Shown here piece by piece: positions 41,979 through 54,786 of a DNA stretch of 64,000 bases. A program made the position numbers and the translations under genes. How positions within the stretch are numbered: the stretch's first letter is position 1; each line of letters begins with the position of its first letter. This DNA comes from Haloplanus sp. HW8-1 (GTDB taxonomy: Archaea > Halobacteriota > Halobacteria > Halobacteriales > Haloferacaceae): positions 620,001 to 684,000 of the forward strand of contig NZ_CP098518.1 of assembly GCF_023703795.1 (NCBI RefSeq), given 5' to 3'. The notes below the pieces were generated by a model. It saw nothing but the letters and a program-made list of their open reading frames with translations, did no database searches and was not told the DNA's origin.

Positions 41979-41992
41979 TATCACACATGATA
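41979..41992 (+). promoter_or_regulatory. TWTCA-N4-TGAKA site, HalOD1 promoter
   Basis: TATCAcacaTGATA. The T of TGA is exactly 22 bp before the A of the TATA core (ATTATA, A42010). A further inverted repeat, TAATTCT-N6-AGAATTA (41991-42010), overlaps the gap and the TATA box. Confidence 0.7.
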
Positions 41993-42035
41993 ATTCTGCC
42001 AGTAGAATTATATGCGGCAGCGCGAAGATACGGGT

Positions 42036-42329
42036 ATGTCAGCGACGAGCGAAGAGAGTGCACGGATGCGGTCGGACCCGAGTCTTCACCGGGCGCAGAT
42101 CGACTGGGACCGCCGCGAACCGGTAAGTTTCACCGTGCAGGTTGCCCTCGGCGATGTCGAAGAGTGCGAGCCGATCGAACTCGACCCCCTCGCGGATTAC
42201 GTCGATCCCGACGCCCTGGAGGCGTTTTTCACGGGACCCCCGGACGTACTGGCAAAGCGGAGTATCACGTTCGAGTACGGGGACCATCTGGTCCACGTCG
42301 ACGGCCGCGGCGAGGTCATCGTCGACTGA
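42036..42329 (+). CDS. HalOD1 output domain protein
   Basis: A 97-residue protein consisting almost entirely of a HalOD1 output domain (CEPIELDPLADYVDPDALEAFF; ITFEYGDHLVHVDGRGEVIV). HalOD1 is a halophile-specific domain proposed to be a signalling output module, also found attached to receiver domains; the biochemical function is unknown. ATG 42036 lies about 25 bp after the TATA box, so the mRNA is probably leaderless. Its promoter carries the same palindromic site as the archaellum and chemotaxis genes, suggesting co-regulation with motility. Confidence 0.82.
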   Translation: MSATSEESARMRSDPSLHRAQIDWDRREPVSFTVQVALGDVEECEPIELDPLADYVDPDALEAFFTGPPDVLAKRSITFEYGDHLVHVDGRGEVIVD

Positions 42330-44320: not shown

Positions 44321-44334
44321 TATCAACGCTGAGA
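44321..44334 (+). promoter_or_regulatory. TWTCA-N4-TGAKA site, cheW promoter
   Basis: TATCAacgcTGAGA. The TGA starts at 44330; the TATA core is TTTATTA with A at 44352, a distance of 22 bp. Confidence 0.72.
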
Positions 44335-46268: not shown

Positions 46269-46357
46269 ATTGCGGGAGCGAGTGTCGTCGGAGCGGGGAC
46301 CCTCGCCGTCCGCCACGTTGCGAATTTATTTCCGTCAGTCTACGTAACTGTCTTGCA

Positions 46358-47092
46358 ATGACGGACCAAACCCGAACGGGAATCGAAGGCTTGGACTCGA
46401 TACTGGGCGGCGGTATCGTCGACAACGCGACGGTGCTGATCAGTGGGAATCCGGGGACCGGCAAGAGTATTCTCGGTCTACAGTACATATACAACGGGGT
46501 GACCCAGTTCGACGAGAAAGGGATCTACCTGTCTTTCGAGGAGAACGCCGAGGACATCGCACAGGCTGCCGAGTCGATCGGCTTCGAGAACTGGCAGGAA
46601 CTCGTCGAGGACGATCAGATCCTGATCTACGACAAACAGGAGTTGCTGCGGCACAACGACTTCAACTCGACTCTGGATCAGTTGCTGGCGGCGTTCGAGG
46701 AGACGGAGTACGAACGGCTCGTCCTCGATTCACTGACCATGTTCGAACTGTTCTTCGAGGACGAACAGGAGAAGCGAACGTATCTGCTGAAGTTCTCCGA
46801 CATCCTGAAGGCCAACGGGTTGACGTCGCTGCTCATCGCCGAGCAGTCCGCCGTGTTCCCTGAGCAGGACATCGGCTTGGAGAACTTCTTGACCGACGGC
46901 AACATCTACCTGATCCAGACCCCGACGGAATCCGGCGTCAACCGGTACATCTGGGTCGCCAAGATGCGAAAGCAGAACATCGAGACGGATATCTTCCCCA
47001 TGGATATCGACGAGGGCGGCATCACCGTCCACGAGCGTGCCGCGGGGTTCTCGATGATGGGTGACCAGAGCGACCGCTTCCCAGGTGAGTGA
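46358..47092 (+). CDS. KaiC-like ATPase, second copy
   Basis: A 244-residue KaiC-domain ATPase, related to but distinct from its divergent neighbour. Walker A is GNPGTGKSIL; the catalytic Glu segment is LSFEENAEDIAQAAESIGF; Walker B is YERLVLDSLTMFEL. A C-terminal arginine/lysine strand pair is VNRYIWVAKMRKQNIETDIFPM. It could act as a signalling ATPase of the CirA/KaiC type in motility or diel control. ATG 46358 lies about 30 bp after TATA GAATTTATT. Its promoter lacks the palindromic site found at the divergent copy. It converges on the winged-helix gene (0-bp gap). Confidence 0.82.
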   Translation: MTDQTRTGIEGLDSILGGGIVDNATVLISGNPGTGKSILGLQYIYNGVTQFDEKGIYLSFEENAEDIAQAAESIGFENWQELVEDDQILIYDKQELLRHNDFNSTLDQLLAAFEETEYERLVLDSLTMFELFFEDEQEKRTYLLKFSDILKANGLTSLLIAEQSAVFPEQDIGLENFLTDGNIYLIQTPTESGVNRYIWVAKMRKQNIETDIFPMDIDEGGITVHERAAGFSMMGDQSDRFPGE

Positions 47093-47428
47093 TCACTCCG
47101 AGAGGGTTCGCCAGGCCTCGTCGAGCCGATTCTTGACCTTCCGCCGTTCCTCCACCTCGACGGTCACGTCACCGTCGGAGAACTCCACGATGACCTCTTC
47201 GATGTTTCGGCGGTAGACGTTGACACGCCGCCGTTCGTCCGAGAGGACCCGGTCGTGATGTTCGAGGAGATCGGCGTCGGTGAGTTCCTCGATTCGGCGA
47301 TAGCAGGTGGCGATCGGTACGTCGAGCTGGTCGCTGAGCTCTTGGGCCGAGCGTGGTTCGTGTGCGAAGCTCAGTATCTCGGGGTTGTACTCGTTACCCA
47401 GAACCCGGAGCATCTCGATTCCGTCCAT
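47093..47428 (-). CDS. Winged-helix transcriptional regulator of the motility island
   Basis: A 111-residue ArsR-like winged helix (MLRVLGNEYNPEILSFAHEPRSAQELSDQLDVPIATCYRRIEELTDADLLEHHDRVLSDERRRVNVYRRN). An acidic-basic C-terminal helix (VEERRKVKNRLDEAWRTL) suggests dimerisation. No metal-binding cysteines are present. It lies in the centre of the archaellum locus, and its start region overlaps a one-mismatch copy of the palindrome found in nine island-related promoters. It is the best candidate for the factor that binds that palindrome. It is analogous in position to archaellum activators such as EarA, though no homology is claimed. Confidence 0.8.
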   Translation of the reverse strand: MDGIEMLRVLGNEYNPEILSFAHEPRSAQELSDQLDVPIATCYRRIEELTDADLLEHHDRVLSDERRRVNVYRRNIEEVIVEFSDGDVTVEVEERRKVKNRLDEAWRTLSE

Positions 47429-47433
47429 TCGTT

Positions 47434-47447
47434 ATCAGTTCAGATAC
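47434..47447 (-). promoter_or_regulatory. Degenerate palindromic site at the regulator's own transcription start
   Basis: TATCAgttcAGATA on the plus strand has one mismatch from TWTCA-N4-TGAKA. It lies between the minus-strand TATA box TTTATTG (47464-47458) and ATG 47428, a position suited to autorepression rather than activation. Confidence 0.4.
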
Positions 47448-47506
47448 GGTGCTGGACAATAAATCGTACTGTCATTCGGACGCAAGACATCGCCGATTCG
47501 CATCGG

Positions 47507-47520
47507 TATCAGTCGTGAGA
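47507..47520 (+). promoter_or_regulatory. TWTCA-N4-TGAKA site, DUF7521-like gene promoter
   Basis: TATCAgtcgTGAGA. The TGA starts at 47516; TATA core TTTATG has its A at 47538, a distance of 22 bp. Confidence 0.72.
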
Positions 47521-47570: not shown

Positions 47571-47852
47571 ATGTTAGTCGTCGAATACCTCTATTTCGCG
47601 GCCACTGGCGTGCTGGTTCTCTCCGGGATGACGATGGTCGGGATGGCGATCAAGGCGTACATCCAGACGACGCGCCGGGCGATGATTCACATCTCGCTGG
47701 GATTCAGTCTGATCGCTGCCGCCGCGATCGCGACGGCGATCAGTGCCTTCATCAATGATTTCACCGGCGTTCGCTCCCTCCTGTTGGTCAACAACGGCCT
47801 CGCGTCCCTGGGATTCATCTTCGTCGTGTACAGTCTCATCATCTACGACTGA
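47571..47852 (+). CDS. Three-helix membrane protein (DUF7521-like)
   Basis: A 93-residue membrane protein with three hydrophobic helices ([64 protein letters not shown]). It resembles small haloarchaeal DUF7521-type proteins that are often paired with an ArsR-like HTH gene, as here. The function is unknown; it might sense membrane state for the regulator. Its promoter has the shared motility palindrome, so it is probably expressed with the archaellum. ATG 47571 follows the TATA box by about 33 bp. Confidence 0.75.
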
Positions 47853-47901: not shown

Positions 47902-47915
47902 TTTCACGAATGATA
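47902..47915 (+). promoter_or_regulatory. TWTCA-N4-TGAKA site, arlA1 promoter
   Basis: TTTCAcgaaTGATA. The TGA starts at 47911; TATA core TTTATAG has its A at 47933, a distance of 22 bp. Confidence 0.75.
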
Positions 47916-47992: not shown

Positions 47993-48670
47993 ATGTTCGA
48001 AGAACGAGAACGAGGGCAGGTCGGGATCGGGACGCTCATCGTGTTCATCGCGATGGTGCTGGTGGCGGCGATCGCCGCGGGCGTCCTGATCAACACGGCC
48101 GGCTTCCTCCAGACCCAGTCCGAACAGACCGGTCAACAGAGCAGCGCACAGGTCACCGATCGCCTCGAACCCGTCTCCAAAACCGGTAACGTCTCGCTCT
48201 ACGACTCCGGGAACACGACGGTTGTCGCCGACCGGACCGCGAACAACGACAGCAACAACATCGCCCTCTCGGTCGACAAGGTGACTATGGTGGTCCAGAA
48301 GTCGCCGGGGGCGAGCGACATCAACATCAGCGCGACGACGTTCGAGTTGGTCGGCCCCGACGGCACCGATCGCTTCCCGTTCACCAACAGCACCGCGATA
48401 AACGCTAGCGAGGGTGAAGTGGCGGTGTTACAGGACGACGACGACTCACTCGATACGTCCTCGTCGGGATTCATCCTGAACAGTCGGACTGACCGTCTGG
48501 TCGTCACGATCGATCTGAACGCGACGGTGAACAACGGTGCGTTCTCCAACGGGCCGCTGGAGCCGGGTGAGACGGCGACGCTCCGGATCAACACCGAGAG
48601 CGGTGCCACGAGCATCATCCGCATCCAAGTGCCCCAGTCGCTCTCCGGCGAGAAGTCCGTCGAACTGTAG
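47993..48670 (+). CDS. arlA1: Archaellin 1 (archaellum filament protein)
   Basis: A 225-residue archaellin, the structural subunit of the swimming filament. The class III signal peptide is [13 protein letters not shown]; prepilin peptidase PibD would cut after RG, leaving the hydrophobic assembly helix [28 protein letters not shown]. The variable region (about 72-105, [15 protein letters not shown]) and several NxS/T sequons indicate N-glycosylation. The C terminus ([21 protein letters not shown]) is shared with the next two genes. It has its own promoter with palindromic site and a leader of about 35 nt. It is the first of three tandem paralogues. Confidence 0.95.
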
Positions 48671-48765: not shown

Positions 48766-48779
48766 TTTCACCAGTGATA
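48766..48779 (+). promoter_or_regulatory. TWTCA-N4-TGAKA site, arlA2 promoter
   Basis: TTTCAccagTGATA. The TGA starts at 48775; TATA core TTTATTA has its A at 48797, a distance of 22 bp. Confidence 0.75.
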
Positions 48780-48857: not shown

Positions 48858-49526
48858 ATGTTCGAAGAACGAGAACGAGGGCAGGTCGGGATCGGGACGC
48901 TCATCGTGTTCATCGCGATGGTGCTGGTGGCGGCGATCGCCGCGGGCGTCCTGATCAACACGGCCGGCTTCCTCCAGACCCAGTCCGAACAGACCGGTCA
49001 ACAGAGCAGCGCACAGGTTACCGACCGCCTCGAACCCGTCTCCAAAACCGGTAACGTCACCTACTACAACAGTTCGTCGCAGAGCGTTCTGAGCGAGAGC
49101 GAGGCCCAGCCGTCCTATTCCAACACCTCCCTCGTGGTCGACGAGATGTCGCTGGTGATCCAGAAATCACCGGGGGCGAGCGACATCAACATCAGCGCGA
49201 CGACGTTCGAGTTGATCGGCCCCGACGGCACCGATCGCTTCCCGTTCACCAACAGTACGGCGGTCAGCGATAAACGCGCGTTGCAGGACGACGACACGTC
49301 GATCAACGTCAGCCAGGGCAGCGGCCTGATCCTGAACAGTCGGACCGACCGTCTGGTCGTCACCCTCAACATGACCGCACTGGCACAGAACAACGAGTTC
49401 GTCAGCGGACCGCTGGAGACGGGTGAGACGGCGACGCTCCGGATCAACACCGAGAGCGGTGCCACGAGCATCATCCGCATCCAGGTGCCCCAGTCGCTCT
49501 CCGGCGAGAAGTCCGTCGAACTGTAG
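48858..49526 (+). CDS. arlA2: Archaellin 2
   Basis: A 222-residue archaellin. The first 70 residues are identical to archaellin 1 and nearly identical at DNA level; the 5' leader just before the ATG is also related. The variable segment ([20 protein letters not shown]) differs. From 49197 to 49378 the DNA is identical to 50023-50204 in archaellin 3, pointing to recent duplication or gene conversion. It has a separate promoter with the shared site. It would co-assemble in the filament or be used alternatively, as seen for multiple archaellins in other haloarchaea. Confidence 0.95.
49197..49378 (+). repeat. 182-bp direct repeat shared by arlA2 and arlA3 (first copy)
   Basis: Apparently perfect identity with 50023-50204, including synonymous positions, whereas arlA1 differs in this part. 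It fits recent gene conversion or duplication. Confidence 0.8.
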
Positions 49527-49580: not shown

Positions 49581-49594
49581 TTTCAGATGTGATA
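49581..49594 (+). promoter_or_regulatory. TWTCA-N4-TGAKA site, arlA3 promoter
   Basis: TTTCAgatgTGATA. The TGA starts at 49590; the weaker TATA core CTTAAC has its A at 49612, a distance of 22 bp. Confidence 0.72.
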
Positions 49595-49677: not shown

Positions 49678-50352
49678 ATGTTCGACAACAACGACGAGAA
49701 TAGGGGGCAGGTCGGGATCGGGACGCTCATCGTGTTCATCGCGATGGTGCTGGTGGCGGCGATCGCCGCGGGCGTCCTGATCAACACGGCCGGCTTCCTC
49801 CAGACCCAGTCCGAACAGACCGGTCAACAGAGCAGCGCACAGGTCACTGATCGCCTCGAACCCATCTCCAAAACCGGTAACGTCTCCAACTACTACACGA
49901 CCAACGACACGGTGGTTCCCTCCTCGGAGGAGAACCTGTCGGACACCAACCAGTCGCTTCGGGTGAACGATATGTCACTGGTCGTCCAGAAATCACCGGG
50001 AGCGAGCGACATTAACGTGAGTGCGACGACGTTCGAGTTGATCGGCCCCGACGGCACCGATCGCTTCCCGTTCACCAACAGTACGGCGGTCAGCGATAAA
50101 CGCGCGTTGCAGGACGACGACACGTCGATCAACGTCAGCCAGGGCAGCGGCCTGATCCTGAACAGTCGGACCGACCGTCTGGTCGTCACCCTCAACATGA
50201 CCGCGCTGGCACAGAACGGCACGTTCGTGAACGGCGCGCTGGAGCCGGGTGAGACGGCGACGCTCCGGATCAACACCGAGAGCGGTGCCACGAGCATCAT
50301 CCGCATCCAGGTGCCCCAGTCGCTCTCCGGCGAGGAATCGGTCGAACTGTAA
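49678..50352 (+). CDS. arlA3: Archaellin 3
   Basis: A 224-residue archaellin with an altered extreme N terminus ([15 protein letters not shown]) but the same PibD site and assembly helix. The variable region ([20 protein letters not shown]) is unique. The remainder is almost the same as archaellin 2, and the C terminus ends GEESVEL instead of GEKSVEL. Its TATA box is weaker than those of the first two, so it may be a minor filament component. N-glycosylation sequons are present. Confidence 0.95.
50023..50204 (+). repeat. 182-bp direct repeat shared by arlA2 and arlA3 (second copy)
   Basis: Identical to 49197-49378; see that entry. Confidence 0.8.
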
Positions 50353-51018: not shown

Positions 51019-51032
51019 TATCAGCGCTGAGA
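51019..51032 (+). promoter_or_regulatory. TWTCA-N4-TGAKA site, cheY promoter
   Basis: TATCAgcgcTGAGA. The TGA starts at 51028; TATA core TTTATTT has its A at 51050, a distance of 22 bp. Confidence 0.74.
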
Positions 51033-53188: not shown

Positions 53189-53202
53189 TATCAAAACTGA
53201 TA
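53189..53202 (+). promoter_or_regulatory. TWTCA-N4-TGAKA site, arlCE promoter
   Basis: TATCAaaacTGATA. The TGA starts at 53198; the TATA core GTTAAAAT has its A at 53220, a distance of 22 bp. It controls the long arlCE-F-G-H-I-J transcript. Confidence 0.74.
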
Positions 53203-53286: not shown

Positions 53287-54786
53287 ATGGAAATCCTAGA
53301 ACGCCTCCTCGGACGCGACGACGACGGGTCCGCGAGCGACAGCGCCGCCGACGCCGACGACGACGACATGCTTTTCGACGACGACGCCGACGACCTCGAC
53401 GGGTTCGGCGGCGGCGACGAGTTCGACGACGAACTCGGCTTCGACGAAGGGGGGGACGACGGCGGTGCCGCGACCGCCGAACTCGAAGGGCGGATCGACG
53501 AGATGGAAAACGAGGTCGCTAGCCTCTCCTCGACCGTGAGTACCATCCGTAGCGAGAACGAGGAGATCAGCAACACTGTCGAGGACGTCGAGGAGAACGT
53601 CCGCAAACTACTCGACATCTACGAGATGGTCACCCGCGGTGTCAACCCGTTCGTCGACGACGCACAAGCCGGCGGCGGGTTCGACGACGGCGGTGGCTCG
53701 CTCGGACTGTTCGACGACTCCGACGACTCGGAGGAGGAAGAACTGGACGACGACATCGCCGGCGCCGACGCCGAGGACTTCTTCGACGACGACTTCTTGG
53801 ACGAGGGCGAGGCCGAGGGCTTCGACGACGGCTTCGACGACGAACCGACCACCGAGGATACCATGGCCGACGATTCCGACGATTCAGACGACTCCGGCAA
53901 ATCGTTCGAGGAACTGAAAGACGAGTACGAGAACGGCGACGCCGACTGGGCCGACGGCGACGACGTGGCCACGAACGGCGACGCCGACGACGAGTTCGGG
54001 GACTTCGCCGAGGATGCTTCCAACGGCGACGCCGACGACGAGTTCGGGGACTTCGCCGAGGACGCTTCCAACGGCGACGCCGACGACGAGTTCGGGGACT
54101 TCGCCGAGGACGCTTCCGACGGCGACGCCCTGGACGACGACGTCGACGGCGATTTCGGCGAGGAGACGGGAGCCGACGCGTTCGACGACGAGTTCGACGA
54201 GGGGCCGGATCCGGAGTCGGACTCGGCTGACGATCCGGGCCCGGACCCCGATCAGGTCCCCGCCGACGGGCCATCGGACGACCCGATCGGCGGGACGGCC
54301 GACGACTCGGCGGGCACCGATGCGGGCGGTTCGAGCCTCCAGTCGACCCAGCGGACGGCCGAGGCGGCGGCCGACGCGGACGGCAGCGGCGACCTCCAGT
54401 TTGCGGCCAACACGCTGATGGACGGCTCGGAGGCGGCGGTCACGAAACCGTACCTGCCGCGGTTGCCCTCGGGGTACGTGAGCGATCTGCTCGTGATGGA
54501 GTGGCTCGAGTACCTAGTCGAGGAGGGCGACGTAGCCGACGCCGCTCGGGCCGTCGAGTACTACCGACGCATCCAGTGGCTCGGCGAGGACGCCGCCGAC
54601 GAACTGCACGACTTCCTCGTCGGATTCGGGGAGGTCGACGACGACGTGACGGGTGCCCCGTCCGACCTCTCCATCGACCACCACGTCGCGAGCCTCCGAT
54701 ACATCAGCAGGCTCACCGGCTCGACGGCCGATTCGATCGTGTTCGAGTGCTGGAGTGGTGGCGGGGGTGTTCCGTTTGGGCTTTAG
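53287..54786 (+). CDS. arlCE: Archaellum switch-complex protein ArlCE (FlaC/E)
   Basis: A 499-residue protein. The N terminus is MEILERLLGRDD. The FlaC-type coiled coil lies at about 75-125 (LEGRIDEMENEVASLSSTVSTIRSENEEISNTVEDVEENVRKLLDIYEMVTRGVNPFV). A very acidic, disordered middle follows with three tandem 16-residue repeats (NGDADDEFGDFAEDAS). The C-terminal FlaD/E domain is KPYLPRLPSGYVSDLLVMEWLEYLVEEGDVADAARAVEYYRRIQWL. ArlCE and ArlD form the cytosolic ring that receives CheF/CheY-P. It is the first gene of the arl operon and overlaps arlF. Confidence 0.93.
   Translation: MEILERLLGRDDDGSASDSAADADDDDMLFDDDADDLDGFGGGDEFDDELGFDEGGDDGGAATAELEGRIDEMENEVASLSSTVSTIRSENEEISNTVEDVEENVRKLLDIYEMVTRGVNPFVDDAQAGGGFDDGGGSLGLFDDSDDSEEEELDDDIAGADAEDFFDDDFLDEGEAEGFDDGFDDEPTTEDTMADDSDDSDDSGKSFEELKDEYENGDADWADGDDVATNGDADDEFGDFAEDASNGDADDEFGDFAEDASNGDADDEFGDFAEDASDGDALDDDVDGDFGEETGADAFDDEFDEGPDPESDSADDPGPDPDQVPADGPSDDPIGGTADDSAGTDAGGSSLQSTQRTAEAAADADGSGDLQFAANTLMDGSEAAVTKPYLPRLPSGYVSDLLVMEWLEYLVEEGDVADAARAVEYYRRIQWLGEDAADELHDFLVGFGEVDDDVTGAPSDLSIDHHVASLRYISRLTGSTADSIVFECWSGGGGVPFGL
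53974..54117 (+). repeat. Three tandem 48-bp repeats inside arlCE
   Basis: Units at 53974-54021, 54022-54069 and 54070-54117 are nearly identical (one synonymous change in GAGGATGC/GAGGACGC). Each codes for NGDADDEFGDFAEDAS (third ends with the same residues). Copy number is likely to vary between strains. Confidence 0.9.

Follow-up and report, generated by a model that had tools for sequence, protein, structure and literature searches.

A CsmR ortholog in Haloplanus, the palindromes at its motility promoters and a candidate operator before its own gene

CsmR and its counterpart in Haloplanus

Before the description of CsmR in 2026 the control of the archaellum in haloarchaea was unexplained, and the sign of CsmR action is still contradictory. 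CsmR of Haloferax volcanii (HVO_1209) is a 13 kDa winged-helix protein of about 112 aa, encoded upstream of arlA1 (PMC13286277, June 2026). Its deletion leads to the loss of motility and archaella and its overexpression to hypermotility, and of 65 ChIP-seq peaks, 50 carry the motif TATCA(N4)TGATA next to the TATA box of archaellum and chemotaxis promoters; both the in-cell promoter binding and the deletion phenotype come from H. volcanii only (PMC13286277).

The locus analysed here belongs to Haloplanus sp. HW8-1, in a stretch of 64,000 nucleotides (contig NZ_CP098518.1, positions 620,001 to 684,000), hereafter the window, to which all coordinates refer unless a genome handle precedes them. 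A 111-aa winged-helix regulator is encoded at 47093-47428 on the minus strand, with its ATG at 47428-47426; the assignment of this gene to csmR draws on the open reading frame, the HTH_20 profile, the protein tree, the synteny, an AlphaFold2 model and a fold match. Its product is 62% identical over 111 aa to that of csmR in a Haloferax-type locus (L090), which was recognized as Haloferax by gene order, without a named record, the published succession of csmR, two archaellins (arlA1-arlA2), the KaiC gene (cirA) and arlCE being found there. Tail-to-tail with csmR lies a KaiC-like gene (46349-47092, plus strand), a member of the KaiC family; since its product is 67% identical to that of the KaiC gene beside arlA2 in L090 and its stop abuts that of csmR, it is considered the CirA ortholog. 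Synteny and sequence thus agree in identifying the window gene as the CsmR ortholog: it is a small winged-helix gene at an archaellin locus, its clade and synteny are those of CsmR, and the motif is located upstream of BRE/TATA. Orthologs were found in most of 391 Halobacteria genomes, and the branching of a tree of 88 proteins is in broad agreement with taxonomy. The csmR matches of archaellum-less Natrialbaceae-type genomes (f4, f7) were rejected as orthologs, as they form a clade of their own in this tree.

A profile search with the csmR product returned Pfam HTH_20 at 40.5 bits (cut-off 27); matches to Pfam AsnC, TrmB and IclR were all sub-threshold and none of the NCBIfam profiles exceeded its cut-off. 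The AlphaFold2 model (pLDDT 86.7) displays a winged helix whose recognition helix spans residues 39-51 and, besides it, two more strands and a helix at the C-terminus. The PDB fold that matches it best is that of Phr, an ArsR-like regulator from archaea (2P4W; E 7e-6, TM 0.71 by query), a match also given by the authors of the CsmR study (PMC13286277), and no solved structure related by sequence to the product was found. Membership of Lrp/AsnC was rejected on an AsnC-type HTH score of 13.6 bits (cut-off 27) and on a model holding only the winged helix-turn-helix, two strands and one helix, with no RAM domain. Membership of the ArsR/SmtB metal sensors, with their cysteine-rich metal-binding site, was likewise rejected: the protein lacks the ArsR metal-site cysteine pair because C42 is its sole cysteine. 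An earlier note on this DNA had described an ArsR-like protein without a metal site, which agrees with the HTH_20 match, the Phr-like fold and the single C42. This residue lies within the recognition helix; it is a cysteine in most orthologs and a serine in those of Halococcus-, Halobacterium- and Natrialbaceae-type, and a redox effect on DNA binding through C42 is possible. The recognition-helix residues PIAT[C/S]YRR are kept in the aligned representatives with the exception of the divergent proteins of Natrialbaceae-type; these read PVTTSYRR, and the archaellin promoters that go with them are devoid of the site. The same note had proposed that the winged-helix protein reads the motility palindrome, and the ChIP-seq motif of the ortholog, TATCA(N4)TGATA (PMC13286277), bears this out to the point that reading of the palindrome by the window protein can be regarded as essentially proven through the ortholog.

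Palindromes at the motility promoters and the direction of control

Nine palindromes in the window deviate from the motif by no more than one base; dinucleotide shuffles lead one to expect 0.11, and none of 100 shuffles reached nine. Eight of them are separated from a TATA box by exactly 13 nt. All on the plus strand, these are located at 41979-41992 (a perfect site) before a HalOD1-domain gene (42012-42329), at 44321-44334 before a cheW-like gene (44420/44471-45094), at 47507-47520 before the divergent DUF7521 gene, 13 nt ahead of ATTTATG, at 47902-47915, 48766-48779 and 49581-49594 before three archaellin genes (CDS 47993-48670, 48858-49526 and 49678-50352), at 51019-51032 before cheY (start about 51079) and at 53189-53202 (a perfect site) before an arlCE-like gene (CDS 53287-54786). 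The ninth precedes csmR and is the single palindrome of the window downstream of a TATA box. The layout proposed earlier, with sites upstream of TATA in the target genes and over the start in the regulator gene, is thus retrieved at all nine promoters.

This geometry extends beyond the window, and the comparative data carry the operator and its spacing to several haloarchaeal families. The csmR-bearing loci (936 kb) contain 197 sites, with a sharp peak of spacing at 14-15 nt to TTTA/TTAT over background counts of mostly 0-5, versus 3 sites in 181 kb of csmR-less loci. Archaellin promoters of csmR-bearing Haloferax-, Halococcus- and Halobacterium-type genomes have sites in register that match the motif at 9-10/10 bases (8/10 in one f10 genome). 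Genome-wide, targets combining the palindrome with a spaced TATA include divergent cheB/cheW genes, a 456-aa transducer, two PilA-type pilins, a histidine kinase and a response regulator, all names being read from the translations. With up to 2 mismatches this search gave 40 matches and its reversed control 17, so that the weak matches are individually unreliable. Three tandem in-register sites (2214833, 2215460 and 2216075, in G000:C1:2214833-2216106) were also observed; the first two precede PilA-like pilin genes, which suggests a control of pili by CsmR in Haloplanus. The only perfect palindrome-plus-TATA match of the genome search (G000:C1:3442452-3442483) precedes a 142-aa gene of unknown function.

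The divergent neighbour of csmR (47571-47852, plus strand) encodes a small membrane protein of the DUF7521 family (PF24365, 29.7 bits, cut-off 27). This gene, whose product is hydrophobic and about 93 aa long, adjoins csmR, downstream or divergent, in most non-Haloferax loci (L048-L149), and is not beside csmR in the Haloferax clade. Its promoter has the palindrome in the activating register at 34 of 48 loci. No mention of DUF7521 was found in a literature search; from this arrangement it is predicted to be a CsmR target, previously unreported, and can be put forward as a possible partner of CsmR or route of signal input.

CsmR, probably as a dimer, would bind TATCA(N4)TGATA, and a site 13 nt before TATA would in the simplest placement bring it beside TFB, where it could recruit TFB/TBP and activate transcription. 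For Haloplanus we infer both the dimerisation and the activation, and direct activation of the targets is likely. The term activator, used in the earlier note, is favoured by the 13-nt geometry and by the motility phenotypes, whereas published RNA-seq speaks against it: target transcripts rise in the csmR deletion strain of H. volcanii, those of genes with motif-bearing, promoter-proximal peaks rising most, and the sign of the action was left open by the authors (PMC13286277). The rise of these genes would fit a CsmR acting chiefly through direct repression of both its targets and itself, the loss of motility in the deletion strain being due to unbalanced expression. We consider this unlikely, given that deletion removes archaella and overexpression leads to hypermotility (PMC13286277), that the strict 13-nt spacing upstream of TATA fits TFB recruitment better than blocking, and that in a Haloplanus genome without csmR (G290, L181/L211) the archaellin gene is decayed, with three in-frame stops.

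The palindrome before csmR

The sequence TATCAGTTCAGATA is present at 47433-47446, where TATCTGAACTGATA, on the minus strand, forms a candidate self-operator of csmR with a 9/10 match, located -18 to -5 from the ATG and over the predicted transcription start. The TATA box of csmR, TTTATTG, lies at 47457-47463 (minus strand), and its TTTAT core is conserved in Haloplanus. Both elements had been noticed earlier and are present, although the positions then given to the site (47434-47447) and to the box (47464-47458) were each 1 too high. Among nine Haloplanus genomes all ten bases of the half-sites (TATCT....TGATA) are invariant, including the mismatch, TATCT in place of TATCA, while the surroundings drift, the spacer keeping one of its four bases and the linker between TATA and site one of ten.

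On a broader scale, with one genome per genus, a match of at least 8/10 was found at -22 to -14 from the ATG in 13 of 41 genera; the reversed pattern gave 0 at this position, intervals at other distances gave 0 to 4, and in shuffled sequence the mean was 0.35 and the maximum 3. Among 75 csmR orthologs the site is over the start in 33 and over the BRE in 11, all of Haloarculaceae-type and ending 2 bp before TATA, and it is in the activating register in a single, doubtful case. Many of the remaining upstream sites at csmR loci are instead in register for the divergent DUF7521 gene.

A CsmR bound over its own start would block the polymerase, so that a rising level of CsmR would shut its own transcription and be held steady. 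Negative autoregulation of csmR, which the earlier note had suggested, is supported by a conserved site that lies over the predicted start and is never clearly in the activating register, and this comparative evidence makes it fairly likely; as for activation at the targets, repression at the self-site is deduced for Haloplanus. Taken as a whole, it is probable that the CsmR ortholog binds the palindrome, activates its targets and blocks its own transcription from the copy at the start site.

The sequence before the ATG might alternatively be a core-promoter or translation element (TGATAAC near the ATG) and no CsmR operator, as could be suggested by several Haloarculaceae in which only the right half-site TGATAAC is kept before the csmR ATG. 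In Haloplanus, however, both halves are equally invariant while spacer and linker drift, Halococcus-type and other genomes keep the left half with a varying right half, and the reversed pattern occurs at the position of the self-site in 0 of 41 genera, so that we give this explanation even less credit than general repression. It is quite improbable that the site acts for the divergent DUF7521 promoter, or works jointly with the one at 47507, leaving csmR unrepressed: the two sites do fall in the same intergenic region, with 74 bp between their centres, but this spacing varies from 74 to 97 bp among Haloplanus species whereas the distance of each site to its own gene is near-fixed, and the self-site is also kept in genomes whose DUF7521 gene lies apart from csmR or is not divergent from it. 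That another winged-helix protein reads the self-site is scarcely credible, for although two other proteins of the genome distantly match the csmR product and other families have a related clade of paralogs, the motif was recovered by ChIP-seq with the CsmR ortholog itself (PMC13286277) and shows no excess where csmR is missing despite the remaining distant relatives.

The self-operator proposed here for csmR is absent from all 15 Haloferax genomes in which it was sought, and published work could therefore not have seen it; autoregulation is not mentioned in the main text of the CsmR paper (PMC13286277), which fits this absence. As the self-site is missing from Haloferax and from about two thirds of the genera tested, autoregulation is not essential to the CsmR system, and about 11 changes of this trait on the protein tree indicate that such wiring evolves easily. 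A more general rule, to which we would give an even chance, would have a site 13 nt before TATA turning genes on, and a site over the start, or the Haloarculaceae BRE site 2 bp from TATA, turning csmR off, with autoregulation repeatedly gained and lost and with DUF7521 as core target and partner.

The csmR paralog clade (f4, f7) displays a conserved ATTCA(N4)TGATA, often after CCACAAG, in its own promoter region, located just upstream of the start in L131, L132, L135, L137, L138, L139 and L143; this pattern suggests a related self-operator in these paralogs.

Loss of csmR among haloarchaea and comparison with known regulators

The palindromes vanish where csmR is lost. Exact palindromes, as per-genome counts summed by hand, amount to 38 in the 60 genomes lacking a csmR ortholog, where the reversed control gives 59. 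The corresponding figures are 137 versus 11 in 15 Haloferax-type genomes, 28 versus 4 in eight csmR-bearing Haloplanus and 0 versus 3 in the csmR-less Haloplanus G290. No archaellin-promoter site was found at ten csmR-less loci. The csmR of another genome (G060, L145 5903-6218) is broken by an in-frame TAG and the archaellin promoter still has its site, consistent with a recent loss of the gene.

Archaellin-bearing loci with neither a csmR ortholog nor a palindrome at the archaellin promoter were observed in several genomes (L212 and L214, g5; L213, L218 and L219, g37; L215 and L220, g60; L216, L217). Another regulator must act there, and these haloarchaea qualify the published claim of a constant co-occurrence of csmR and archaellins. 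A stronger BRE at csmR-less archaellin promoters, resembling an EarA bypass, was considered and rejected, being inconsistent across genera by eye. Haloquadratum-type genomes have no archaellum but a fast-evolving csmR relative (L140-L142; G314, G317, G014) and 13 to 26 exact palindromes. The idea of a hidden regulon in these genomes was abandoned, as almost none of 15 loci inspected had a TATA in register; palindrome counts of this kind, without TATA in register, show the limits of the reversed-pattern control where genomes are AT-rich.

The CsmR regulator and the motif it reads were known beforehand. What the present analysis adds is the member from Haloplanus, together with a conserved candidate self-operator and a connection to DUF7521, the last two apparently new. 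The comparative data suggest a feedback loop missing from the model species. Whether CsmR activates or represses would be better settled in a strain that has the self-site, such as one of Haloarculaceae or Haloplanus.

Haloplanus shares with CsmR of H. volcanii the archaellin/cirA neighbourhood and the palindrome upstream of BRE/TATA, and differs from Haloferax by a csmR gene that is divergent from the DUF7521 gene, tail-to-tail with the cirA-like gene and overlapped by a self-site at its start. EarA, known from Methanococcus and Pyrococcus, is also described in the literature as a winged-helix archaellum regulator binding upstream of TATA/BRE, but has no sequence or structural similarity to CsmR according to the CsmR authors (PMC13286277). 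The metal sensors CzrA and SmtB of the ArsR/SmtB family have the ArsR-type winged-helix core in common with the csmR product, which is however without their metal-site cysteines. Phr of Pyrococcus furiosus (2P4W) is the nearest fold to the csmR model, yet it is only 21% identical, is about 200 aa long and controls heat-shock genes. Phr represses genes, its own included, by binding over the start.
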